From Planctomycetaceae bacterium (GTDB lineage Bacteria > Planctomycetota > Planctomycetia > Planctomycetales > Planctomycetaceae), in assembly GCA_019636285.1 (NCBI GenBank), contig JAHBXV010000005.1, positions 124,001 through 188,000 of the forward strand: a DNA stretch of 64,000 nucleotides, given 5' to 3'. Of this stretch, positions 49,283 through 53,824 are shown piece after piece. A model generated the notes under the pieces. That model worked only from the letters and a program-made list of their open reading frames with translations, was not told the origin of the DNA and did not search any database. Position 1 is the stretch's first letter. Each line of letters opens with the position of its first letter. The translations under genes and the position numbers were made by a program.

Positions 49283-49450
49283 TTTTCAATCCATCGGCAA
49301 TTTGCGCGCCCGCTAGCCGCGACCCACCGGAGAGCGCTGCCTTTCGCGTCCGCCAGCCGATATACTGTCGGTTTACGGTAACTTGTTCCGACGAGGAACT
49401 CCGACCGGAACGCGATGAGGCGGACGAGAGATTTCGTGGAAAGCAGTGGT

Positions 49451-50371
49451 ATGGCTGATTTGACGATTGAACCAGGCAAGACACGGATCGGCTGGATCGG
49501 CACCGGTGTCATGGGCTGCAGCATGGTCGGCCACCTCATGGCCGCCGGATATTCCGCGACGGTTTACAACCGCTCCAGGAGCAAAGCCGAACCCTTGCTC
49601 GCCAAAGGGGCCGCCTGGGCCGACACGCCGAAAAGAGTCGCCGAGCAGTCCGACGTGATTTTCTCCATCGTCGGCTTTCCATCGGATGTCCGCGAGGTGA
49701 CGCTCGGAGCCCAGGGTTCTCTGGCGGGCGCCAGCGCGGGAGCAATTCTGGTCGACATGACCACCAGCGAACCCTCGCTGGCCGTCGAGATCGCCGAGAC
49801 CGCCAAGGCAAAGGGTGTCCACTCGGTCGACGCCCCCGTCTCGGGCGGCGACATTGGCGCCCGAAATGCCGCCCTGTCCATCATGATCGGCGGCGAGAAA
49901 GCGATCGTTGAAAAGCTCACGCCCCTATTTCAGGCGATGGGCAAGACGATCGTTCATCAGGGTGGGCCGGGGGCGGGGCAGCACACCAAGATGGCGAACC
50001 AGATTCTGATCGCCACGAACATGATCGGCGTCTGCGAGTCGCTGCTGTATGGCTACAAGGCGGGCCTGAACCTGGAGACCATGCTCCAGTCGGTCGGACC
50101 GGGAGCCGCCGGAAGCTGGTCGCTCTCCAATCTCGGCCCGCGAATCATGCAGAACAATTTCGATCCCGGCTTCTTCGTGGAACACTTCATCAAGGATATG
50201 GGCATCGCGCTGGCCGAGGCCAAACGGATGGGGCTCTCGCTCCCCGGCCTGGCCCTCTCCGAACAGCTTTACCTGTCCGTCAAGGCAAAAGGCTGGGGGC
50301 GTAACGGCACCCATGCCCTGATGCTCGCGCTCGCTGAAATGTCGGGACTTGATTGGCCTAAACGAAAGTGA
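49451..50371 (+). CDS. NAD(P)-dependent beta-hydroxyacid dehydrogenase (3-hydroxyisobutyrate dehydrogenase family)
   Basis: 306 residues from ATG 49451 ([12 protein letters not shown]). The Rossmann motif is [23 protein letters not shown], then [11 protein letters not shown]. The family's substrate-binding string [22 protein letters not shown] is intact, followed by [14 protein letters not shown], which contains the catalytic lysine. The last third is the all-helical dimer domain ([22 protein letters not shown]). The substrate could be 3-hydroxyisobutyrate, tartronate semialdehyde or succinic semialdehyde; the sequence does not decide. It precedes dapA by 165 bp on the same strand. Confidence 0.93.
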
Positions 50372-50536: not shown

Positions 50537-51424
50537 ATGTCCCGTAAGGGCGATCAATTTGCCGGCCTCACTGTCGCGCTCGTGACTCCGTTTCGCTCGG
50601 GTGAAGTGGACGTCCCGGCCCTGAAGGGCCTGGTCGACTTCCACGTGAGCGCTGGAACCAACTGTCTGTGTCCTGTCGGAACAACCGGCGAATGCCCGAC
50701 GCTGTCGCACGAAGAGCATTCGAAGGTTGTTGAAATCGTCTGTGCGCACGCCGCGGGACGTATCAAGGTGATGGCGGGCACGGGCTCGAACAGCACGACC
50801 GAAGCCATTCAGTTGACGAAGCATGCCAAGTCGGTCGGTGCGGATGGGGCGATGATGGTCGCCCCTTACTACAACAAGCCGACGCAGGAAGGGTTCTATC
50901 AGCACTTCGCGAAAGTGGCTGAAGCGGTCGACATCCCCATCATTCTCTACAACATTCCCGGTCGAACCGCCAAGAACATGGAAGCGGAGACGATTGCCCG
51001 ATTGGGGGAAATTCCCAACATCGTGGCGATCAAGGAAGCGACTGGCTCGATGGACCAGGCGTCGCAGGTGCTCGCGATGAGCCGACTGACCCTGCTGTCT
51101 GGCGATGACAGCCTGACGCTGCCGCTGATGGCTCTCGGCGGCGCGGGCGTGATCTCGGTCGTGGGGAACATCGTGCCGCAGGACGTTCTGGGACTGATCG
51201 CCGCCTTCCGCGCCAACGACCTGGAAGCGGCACAGATGTGGCATTACAAGCTCTTCACGCTGTGCCGCGATCTCTTGGGGCTGTCAACCAACCCCATTCC
51301 GATCAAGGCCGCCATGAAGCTGCTGGGGCGCGACACGGGCGAACTGCGACTGCCGCTGACGCCGCTGGGCGATGACGAAGAACGCAAGTTGGCGCGCACG
51401 CTGACGGAATACGGGCTGCTGTAG
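50537..51424 (+). CDS. dapA: 4-hydroxy-tetrahydrodipicolinate synthase
   Basis: 295 residues, the normal DapA length. It carries [17 protein letters not shown] (Thr49/Thr50 of the pyruvate site), [16 protein letters not shown] (Tyr112), LYNIPGRT (Tyr138) and VAIKEATG with the Schiff-base lysine at 166. It condenses pyruvate with aspartate semialdehyde in the first committed step of lysine and diaminopimelate synthesis, in the cytoplasm. A few paralogues in the family act on sialic acid or sugar acids, but the GTTGE, YYNKP and NIPGRT set favours DapA. No other lys/dap gene is in the window. Confidence 0.92.
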
Positions 51425-51605
51425 TACCGGCTGTTGTAGTAACAGTCGCATGGAGAGAGCGAACGGGACGGAACCCGCGACACGGTGAGAAAGTGATCCA
51501 TCGTCTTCCTGACACAACTGGTCGTGCCTGCCAGAAACCTGGGTTTACCAGGCAAACAGTTCGCCGCACACAGGTTGTGTTAGAAACTCATAGGGGAGTC
51601 GTCTC

Positions 51606-52919
51606 GTGATTTTTGGCCTGTTCGGTGGCGGCAAGTCGGACCAGCCCGACGATGAAGAAGAGATGGAACTGGTCGCCTTTCAGGGCGCGCTCAACGGCAA
51701 AGCGGCCGACCTGAAGGCGAACGCCCGGCTCGTGGAAGCCGGCCTGGTTCCCGCGAAGGAAATGGTCAGCGAGGCCCTTAGCCGTCGCGCCGAAATGATT
51801 CGCCTCGAAACCAAGGGCGATCGAGCCGCTGCGACTCTCTTTATCGACGGCGTTGCTTATGCGGGCCAGCGCTACCCCCGCCAGCAGGCGACCGCCATCG
51901 TCCAGATGATCAAGCTGCTTGCCGGGCTCGATCACAAGCTCAAAGGTCGCCACCAGGAAGGGGGGCTGAAGGCCGAGTTCACCGAACTTCCCTACGAAAT
52001 TCGCGTGGAAGTTACGCCCGTCGCAGAGGGACAGGAGCGGCTGGTTCTCAAGTTCCGCAATCTTAAAGAGAAGATGTCGACGCCCGAAGAACTCGGCATC
52101 CCCCCCGAGACCAAGCAGAAACTGCGCGACGTCTGCGGCGGCAAGCACGGACTGGTCCTCGTTGTCGGTCCTCCTTTCTCGGGAGTGACCACGACCTATT
52201 ACGGCTTGCTGCGCGGGATTGACGTCTATCTGCACGCGGCTTTCACGATCGCCGCTCCCAGTGATCGCGATGTCTACAACATCTCCCGATTTGAGGTGAA
52301 CGAGGGAGACAGCTTCGAGCAGACCTGCCGCCGCATGATTCGCTCGGAAGCCGACATCATCTCCGTCGATCCACTCAGGGATGGCGAAACAGCCAAGACG
52401 CTTCTGGAACTCGCCGAGAATGTCTGCTTCATCTGCGAGATGCCAGCGAAGGATTCCGGAGCCGCGATCGAGCAACTCGTGAAGTGGACGTCCGATCCGC
52501 AACTGGTCTCCACCTCGCTCGATGCGATCTTCAGCCCGAAGCTGATCCGCAAGCTCTGCACGGAATGCCGGGAAGCTTTCCGCCCCAATCCCAAACTGCT
52601 CACCAAAATGGGGCTTCCCGACGACCTGAAGGTCATGTATCGCAAAGGCGAGCCACCAACCGATCCCAAGACCGGCGAAGTCGGCGAACCATGTGCTCGT
52701 TGCGACGGCGTCGGCTATCTGGGTCGGACGGTCATGCTCGAAGTGCTCGAAATCACTCCGGACATCCGCGAGCTCATCGCCAAAGGCGCGCCTCCCGACC
52801 AGATCAAGGCCAAGGCCCGCGCGGAAGGCCAGACCACCTTCCAGAAAGAAGGCCTGCGCCTGGTCGCCGAGGGAATCACCTCCCTCGAAGAATTGCAGCG
52901 GGTCTTCAAAGCGGGTTAG
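51606..52919 (+). CDS. PilB/GspE-like secretion-ATPase homologue lacking Walker A lysine
   Basis: 437 residues from GTG 51606, the only start keeping the N-terminus (MIFGLFGGGKSDQ). An N-terminal N2-like domain (about 60-150) precedes a C-terminal RecA-like fold. The Walker A region reads GPPFSGVTTT (188-197): lysine is replaced by Val194. The Walker B-type GEIRD is replaced by DIISVDPLRD (250-259). Zinc-binding cysteines remain as CTEC (318-321) and CARC (363-366), with GYLGRTVMLEVLEI and the usual tail. By this reading the ATPase is catalytically compromised and may be structural or regulatory. Two other explanations are that a partner supplies catalysis or that sequencing errors altered the site. 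No pilus or secretion genes flank it. Confidence 0.82.
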   Translation: MIFGLFGGGKSDQPDDEEEMELVAFQGALNGKAADLKANARLVEAGLVPAKEMVSEALSRRAEMIRLETKGDRAAATLFIDGVAYAGQRYPRQQATAIVQMIKLLAGLDHKLKGRHQEGGLKAEFTELPYEIRVEVTPVAEGQERLVLKFRNLKEKMSTPEELGIPPETKQKLRDVCGGKHGLVLVVGPPFSGVTTTYYGLLRGIDVYLHAAFTIAAPSDRDVYNISRFEVNEGDSFEQTCRRMIRSEADIISVDPLRDGETAKTLLELAENVCFICEMPAKDSGAAIEQLVKWTSDPQLVSTSLDAIFSPKLIRKLCTECREAFRPNPKLLTKMGLPDDLKVMYRKGEPPTDPKTGEVGEPCARCDGVGYLGRTVMLEVLEITPDIRELIAKGAPPDQIKAKARAEGQTTFQKEGLRLVAEGITSLEELQRVFKAG

Positions 52920-52927
52920 CAACCCGC
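52911..52927 (+). terminator. Short GC hairpin over a stop codon
   Basis: GCGGGTT (52911-52917) and AACCCGC (52921-52927) form a 7-bp stem around AGC at the stop of the PilB-like gene. No U-run follows. Confidence 0.35.
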
Positions 52928-53824
52928 CGATCGTCGCGGCATTCTCCATCAACGAGCAACGCGCGGGTTCCCGAGCAGAGGAACCCATGTCGCGTTTCGT
53001 GGCTCATCCACTTTCCGGCCCTCCAGTCATCCACTGCTAATCCCACCGATCGCTCCACTTACCTCGGCAATCGACCCGCTGCAACAATCGCCGAGGGAAG
53101 CGGAAGCCTCTTCCTTCCCCACCACTTTCCGACTATCAGTGACTGCCTGAACACGTCTTCAGCCGGAATGCCTGTTCTTTTTAGCAGTTCGAGTACCGAA
53201 GTGGCGCTTCAGCACGGCCTAACGTAATATCCATTTCATCAGACATAGCAGACCGCGACGCGCTTTGCCGCGCGAGATTGCTTGCCCGGCATCCAACCGG
53301 CACATCGCACGCTCGACAAGCGGATGACCCAGCTCTCACTAGCCAATCCTCCCAATCGTTACGCGCGCTCCTCGCTATCGCGCGAACGCCGCGGCTATCC
53401 GAGAAAACAGGCCCGAAAACTTCGCAGGCAGACTACGACGGCCTGTTATTGCACGGCTCCGGCGCGTTGGACACTTCGAAGCCGTTGATTTCATCGTCAG
53501 TTTTTCGCACCGCCGCGCGTCCCCTCAAAACTCATCTAGCAGCATGGCGACACGGCTCAGTTGGTCAATCCTTTAAGAATTAGCTGGTCGGTGCGTAGAA
53601 ATACCATGGAATGGTAATTAGAATCCCTACACCGTTTGGGGGCGATCAAGCTGGAGGTCCAATTCCAACTTGGCCAGGTCGTCCTTGGTCGACTGGCAAC
53701 GCAAGACGTTTCGCGTTGCCTCGTGGCGGCCCTTGCCTCGTTGACCAGACTTAATGTTGGCACGGAGCGTTCCTACACGCCCGGCCAAGTTCGATTGAAT
53801 GAAAAACTGAACAAGGAGCGATCG
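52920..53824. other. 905-base gene-free region
   Basis: It lies between the PilB-like gene and the small basic protein gene, both on the plus strand. No plausible coding frame with a ribosome site, no tRNA and no recognised RNA element was found. A short symmetric site TACCAT/GGA/ATGGTA occurs at 53602-53616. It probably holds the promoter of the downstream gene. A small RNA cannot be excluded by reading alone. Confidence 0.5.
53813..53818 (+). promoter_or_regulatory. Ribosome binding site for the basic protein gene
   Basis: AAGGAG lies six bases before ATG 53825 and argues against the longer in-frame start at 53636. Confidence 0.65.

Follow-up and report, generated by a model that had tools for sequence, protein, structure and literature searches.

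The window analysed here, 64,000 nucleotides of genomic DNA from a Planctomycetaceae bacterium, contains a gene for a PilB/GspE-like protein in which valine stands at the position of the catalytic Walker A lysine. This raises the question of what such a protein does in the cell, and whether it is a motor, the remnant of a motor, or a protein that works without burning ATP. The initial annotation, made from the letters of the sequence, favoured a non-catalytic role. All functional statements below are based on the sequence and the predicted structure.

The Gene and the Predicted Fold of Its Product

The frame at 51606–52919 (+ strand) is open throughout, starts with GTG and encodes a product of 437 amino acids, referred to below as pseudo-GspE/PilB. 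Direct reading of the sequence reveals a ribosome-binding-like stretch, AGGGGAG (51592–51598, + strand), 7 nt 5′ of the GTG. GTG was also assigned as the start of about 28 of 35 orthologues by a heuristic start choice, and the N-terminus of many orthologues reads (V/M)IFGFG, followed by acidic residues. An antisense ORF of 466 aa (window 51588–52988, − strand) spans the whole gene and is probably a high-GC shadow frame.

The protein matches the Pfam family T2SSE (PF00437) with 135.8 bits (cut-off 24.9, E = 1.9e-39), and a Pfam scan at E ≤ 1 returns no other domain. Its best NCBIfam match is the GspE equivalog TIGR02533, with 182.1 bits against a cut-off of 630.25; the PilB equivalog TIGR02538 scores 154.9 bits against a cut-off of 675.65. 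The AlphaFold2 model (alignment of 69 sequences) has a pLDDT of 91.8 and a pTM of 0.85. The top Foldseek matches of the model are PilB, the type IVa pilus extension ATPase, and PilF (1.2e-33), with GspE and PilT next. VIA-align gives Z of 34.8 over 374 residues against PilB, and Z of 31–35 over 362–378 residues across PilB/GspE structures. The rmsd to the known structures is about 4.7–5 Å, which would fit a differing arrangement of the N2 and ATPase domains. By sequence family and by its N2/RecA-like fold, pseudo-GspE/PilB is a member of the PilT/VirB11-like secretion ATPases (PilB/GspE clade), and a PilB/GspE fold is predicted with confidence.

The initial annotation considered the overall length to be retained. 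This holds for the N2 domain and the ATPase core of PilB; the N-terminal N1/MshEN-type domain is missing. In place of the N1 of PilB/GspE there is an acidic tail, MIFGLFGGGKSDQPDDEEEM (51606–51665, + strand; pLDDT 42–63), which is acidic in the aligned orthologues as well. Residues 1–20 are thus acidic and of low prediction confidence, and residues 1–50 of the predicted structure amount to this tail and a short segment. The cyclic-dinucleotide binding suggested earlier finds no support here, as the region that would hold an MshEN or other N-terminal domain is absent (Pfam, E ≤ 1). Lacking the N-terminal MshEN domain, the protein does not qualify as an MshE-type c-di-GMP-binding ATPase.

Catalytic Motifs Lost and Other Motifs Kept

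Motifs were counted in 101 distinct orthologues from the order Planctomycetales, with 25 intact relatives from the same genome and from other orders as the comparison set. The Walker A lysine, the ASP-box Glu and the catalytic Glu are each present in 25/25 of the intact relatives. In the window protein, the degenerate Walker A motif GPPFSGVTTT (residues 188–197; 52167–52196, + strand) has Val194 (codon 52185–52187) at the lysine position, as first noticed. The initial annotation had proposed a comparison of this position across planctomycetes, with lysine in orthologues counting against its reading. None of the 101 orthologues has lysine; the residues found are V (69), T (19), L (11), I (1) and S (1). 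Among the lysine-less orthologues are those of the isolates Alienimonas chondri (L118) and Thalassoglobus neptunius (L132), and a state common to 101 distinct orthologues is due neither to chance nor to a read error.

The replacement of the Walker B motif by DIISVDPLRD (residues 250–259; 52353–52382, + strand) likewise stands: D255-P256 occupies the place of GE in PilB, and at the position of the catalytic Glu, Pro is found in 86/101 orthologues and Glu in 2/101. The degeneration turned out to be broader than first described, extending to the ASP box, the HIS box and Arg finger 1. The ASP-box Glu position is Ala216 (52251–52253, + strand), with Glu in 0/101 orthologues vs. 25/25 intact paralogues. 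The degenerate HIS box, NVCFICEMPAKD (residues 272–283; 52419–52454, + strand), has lost both His in all orthologues (0/101) and carries the family-specific Glu278, present in 99% of the pseudo-ATPase family; 96% of intact/active relatives have the HIS-box Thr at this position. The Arg-finger positions were located via alignment to L004, the closest full-length relative in the genome, and not via PilB coordinates. At Arg finger 1, Arg is found in 0/101 orthologues, the intact paralogues themselves varying there (R13, S11, H1), and at Arg finger 2 in 20/101, with Arg133 retained in the window protein.

Several other features are kept. Both P-loop glycines, the Thr/Ser following the lysine position and the N2 Asp of the Asp-Gly motif are each present in 101/101 orthologues. 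The zinc-site CxxC pairs recognised from the start, C318 + C321 (52557–52568, + strand) and C363 + C366 (52692–52703, + strand), make up a tetracysteine zinc motif, with Cys in 100/101 orthologues. In one orthologue (L050, genome G018), all four zinc cysteines are gone together and the remaining fold motifs are kept.

From these sequence comparisons, the loss of catalysis in pseudo-GspE/PilB is near certain, and the protein presumably does not hydrolyse ATP. As the catalytic Glu is kept in 2/101 orthologues and Arg finger 2 in 20/101, nucleotide binding would still be formally possible. An NTPase that stays active through an unusual arrangement of its catalytic site, with some other lysine or acidic residue substituting, could make use of the P-loop backbone, D255 beside Walker B and the conserved R246 and E278. 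This seems very unlikely, since the lysine, the Mg-binding ASP Glu, the catalytic Glu, the HIS box and Arg finger 1 are jointly gone in essentially all orthologues, whereas in the active PilT-like family the Walker residues, the catalytic Glu, the two Arg fingers and the ASP-box Glu are completely conserved and the HIS-box His is highly conserved (PMC5424180).

Conservation and Selection

Orthologues were sought in genome contigs across the order with an alignment query. They are present in 162/170 Planctomycetales genomes, where the best matches are stronger than ~1e-120 and well apart from paralogues; in the remaining 8/170, the best match is weaker (~1e-103 or less) or there is none. Among the named orthologue loci are those of Schlesneria, Planctomicrobium, Alienimonas, Thalassoglobus and Fuerstiella, names that suggest a place for the window genome within Planctomycetales. 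A plasmid search returned distant T2SSE matches only, the best among the matches listed having 28–29% identity. The main text of the essential-gene paper on P. limnophila does not name the gene.

The median dN/dS is 0.08 (range 0.025–0.251) in 59 close pairs, which are non-independent but give low values throughout. The gene is under strong purifying selection. The low dN/dS indicates that pseudo-GspE/PilB is functional despite evolving faster than its intact relative, the branches of the pseudo-ATPase family being longer than those of the intact paralogue. This faster divergence is the one point in favour of a decaying pseudogene or a sequencing error, an idea that is hardly credible and is refuted by the conservation: the frame is open in the orthologues examined, the gene occurs in nearly all genomes of the order with the dN/dS given above, and the 101 distinct sequences carry a small or hydrophobic residue at the lysine position.

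Paralogues in the Genome and Ancestry

Above the Pfam cut-off, 15 T2SSE matches occur in the genome, and among the full-length T2SSE proteins examined the window protein is the sole one without the lysine. The genome search that the initial annotation recommended turned up intact PilB/GspE/PilT-type proteins. They include L004 (contig C52, 658 aa, ~3 TM segments, 34% identity), a planctomycete membrane-anchored GspE-like protein with every catalytic motif intact. The PilT orthologue of the genome is L015 (contig C13). The proposal of a non-catalytic role is well supported by the lack of lysine in all 101 orthologues, the strong purifying selection and the presence of these intact proteins.

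The L004 gene is followed by a CvpA/Colicin V-like gene that scores 27.6 bits, below the Pfam cut-off of 29.3; the same family scores 30.2 bits at L219. A matching operon in other orders comprises a PilT-family ATPase, the membrane-anchored GspE and the CvpA-like protein, with a hisF-like gene upstream in several cases. Genes for CvpA/Colicin V-like membrane proteins lie after a lysine-bearing membrane-anchored GspE gene at L217 (10041–10811) and L219 (9524–10267).

In a 67-sequence tree, the window family is monophyletic (100/100) and lies inside the membrane-anchored GspE clade (100/99), with a lysine-less membrane-anchored branch as its sister (97/81). The tree thus places the ancestry of pseudo-GspE/PilB within the planctomycete membrane-anchored GspE family. 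A duplication from L004 confined to Planctomycetales is not clearly rejected (p-AU 0.0501), so the lysine may have been lost once or twice. Long branches may also have influenced the deep part of the tree.

Lysine Loss in Other Families of Planctomycetia

The membrane-anchored GspE lacks the lysine in 41/41 proteins sampled from eleven families (f5, f7, f10, f11, f13, f14, f16, f17, f18, f21 and f22; proteins L195–L197, L237–L266, L288–L291, L293, L295 and L296) and has it in families f1, f2, f3, f4 and f6. The matches in f15 have the lysine, but cluster with ordinary PilB/GspE proteins in the tree. Like the window family, to which they form the sister clade, the lysine-less membrane-anchored homologues have lost the Walker A lysine (L, M, F or Y instead) and the HIS box. 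Unlike it, they mostly keep the membrane anchor, most of them keep the ASP-box Glu, and their gene adjoins an intact PilT gene in the three loci checked (3/3: L220, L221 and L223). In the clustering of neighbouring genes, the CvpA-like gene was not found at these three loci. The membrane part is also lost in three f5 proteins (L210, L240 and L256), and there are partly eroded forms that still bear the lysine (L188, L191 and L193).

By this pattern across the families, loss of catalysis is a theme of the membrane-anchored GspE family. Tentatively, an assembly-type GspE/PilB-like protein may have turned, in many Planctomycetia, into a dedicated subunit that does not hydrolyse ATP and works alongside an intact ATPase of the PilT family. 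It is possible, if rather doubtful, that one natural class of pseudo-motors within the type IV filament superfamily would then cover both the soluble copy of Planctomycetales and the membrane-anchored protein of the eleven other families.

Gene Neighbourhood

The stable neighbours of the gene in 72 orthologue loci are dapA and a dehydrogenase gene, and no pilus or motor gene adjoins it. In the window, dapA (4-hydroxy-tetrahydrodipicolinate synthase; 50537–51424, + strand) scores 346.8 bits with TIGR00674, above the cut-off; in 41/72 loci it immediately precedes the pseudo-ATPase gene in the same orientation, with a median gap of 83 bp. The gene for a 3-hydroxyacid dehydrogenase (HIBADH/tartronate semialdehyde reductase-like; 49415–50371, + strand; best match TIGR01505, below its cut-off) precedes the pseudo-ATPase gene in the same orientation in 44/72 loci, and neither neighbour is found in 25/72. 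Neighbour clusters 5, 11 and 24 were dropped, as they seem to be shadow translations, read out of frame, of dapA, the dehydrogenase gene and the pseudo-ATPase gene.

A small lipoprotein gene lies downstream in 26/72 loci (e.g., L078, 9431–9778). The lipoprotein family has the motif GQTLPS..YYL.DDVQYFPAGPEF, and the window genome has a copy elsewhere (G000:C44:38376-38570, L216). The lipoprotein was rejected as an obligate partner, since it was not found after the pseudo-ATPase gene in the window, nor in 45 further loci among the 72.

The dapA, dehydrogenase and lipoprotein neighbours give no pointer to pilus function. They would agree with a structural protein tied to the lysine/dehydrogenase gene cluster or the cell envelope, with no pilus or secretion link; we consider this improbable, as about a third of the loci have neither upstream neighbour and the zinc and C-terminal motifs still present are of the PilB/GspE kind.

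Proposed Function

The replacement of the catalytic residues, together with the near-universal retention of the gene under strong selection, suggests that the protein is probably a non-burning partner or sensor and not a motor. We are inclined, by a modest degree, to regard it as an ancient and conserved pseudo-ATPase, belonging to the PilT/VirB11-like secretion-ATPase superfamily, whose role towards an active motor of the PilT/GspE type would be that of a structural or regulatory partner. It would descend from a copied gene of the membrane-anchored GspE lineage of planctomycetes, having lost the membrane anchor and the catalytic residues but not the N2 domain and ATPase core, nor the P-loop backbone, zinc module and C-terminal helices. 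Most probably the protein forms or joins a ring that burns no ATP, and assembles with an active motor of the PilT/GspE type, or against one, in the manner of a non-hydrolysing adaptor or clutch. The candidate motor partners in the genome are L004 and L015; that the protein joins a hetero-oligomer or otherwise acts as a partner, and with which motor, is what we infer. Partnership of a regulatory or structural kind is plausible and has a precedent in V. cholerae, where PilT with dead Walker motifs continues to support retraction driven by PilU (PMC6762196). Walker A-dead PilB and the non-hydrolysing ArlH, taken up below, are further precedents.

A less probable but serious alternative is a signalling or sensor protein that is part of no motor: with a ligand or a protein bound by its P-loop backbone and N2-C cleft, it would report the state of a motor or of the envelope to another pathway. 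The P-loop glycines and the Thr/Ser are invariant (101/101) despite the loss of lysine, and the gene lies among metabolic genes, away from motor genes. There are also precedents: Myxococcus PilB K327A has no ATPase activity and still supports exopolysaccharide production, i.e., has a signalling role (PMC5544727), and ArlH binds ATP without hydrolysis and regulates ArlI, the archaellum motor (PMC8978795). However, an extra sensory domain is absent, and the glycines could serve folding only.

Comparison with Known Systems

PilB of G. metallireducens (5TSG/5TSH) and PilF of T. thermophilus (5OIU) share with the window protein the N2 domain and RecA-like core (Z ~34), the tetracysteine zinc module and the C-terminal helices. 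Unlike them, the window protein is without N1, the Walker A lysine, the ASP and HIS boxes and Arg finger 1, and its family has all but lost the catalytic Glu. GspE/EpsE, the type II secretion ATPase (1P9R, 4KSR), has a similar core fold (Z 31–32) and a zinc site, whereas the window protein scores far under the equivalog cut-off, lacks the catalytic residues and lies outside any T2SS operon. L004 belongs to the same clade, but only L004 has the membrane anchor, all catalytic motifs and the CvpA/Colicin V-like gene after it.

A functional likeness is seen in Walker-dead PilT with PilU, in which a catalytically dead PilT-family ring serves an active paralogue; that ring was made by laboratory mutations, whereas the window family is a natural pseudoenzyme clade (PMC6762196). 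ArlH offers another likeness as a RecA-fold, non-hydrolysing regulator of a PilB-like motor, but it belongs to a KaiC-like family, binds ATP and autophosphorylates (PMC8978795). Walker-dead PilT and PilB with partner or signalling functions were previously laboratory-made, and searches of the open-access literature found no account of Walker-dead PilT/PilB-type proteins forming a natural lineage across a whole order. The secretion and attachment machinery of the planctomycete phylum is poorly known. If the partner role is true, the function of the ring would be separable from ATP burning, and the family would offer a natural system for studying the coupling of type IV filament motors to membrane partners.
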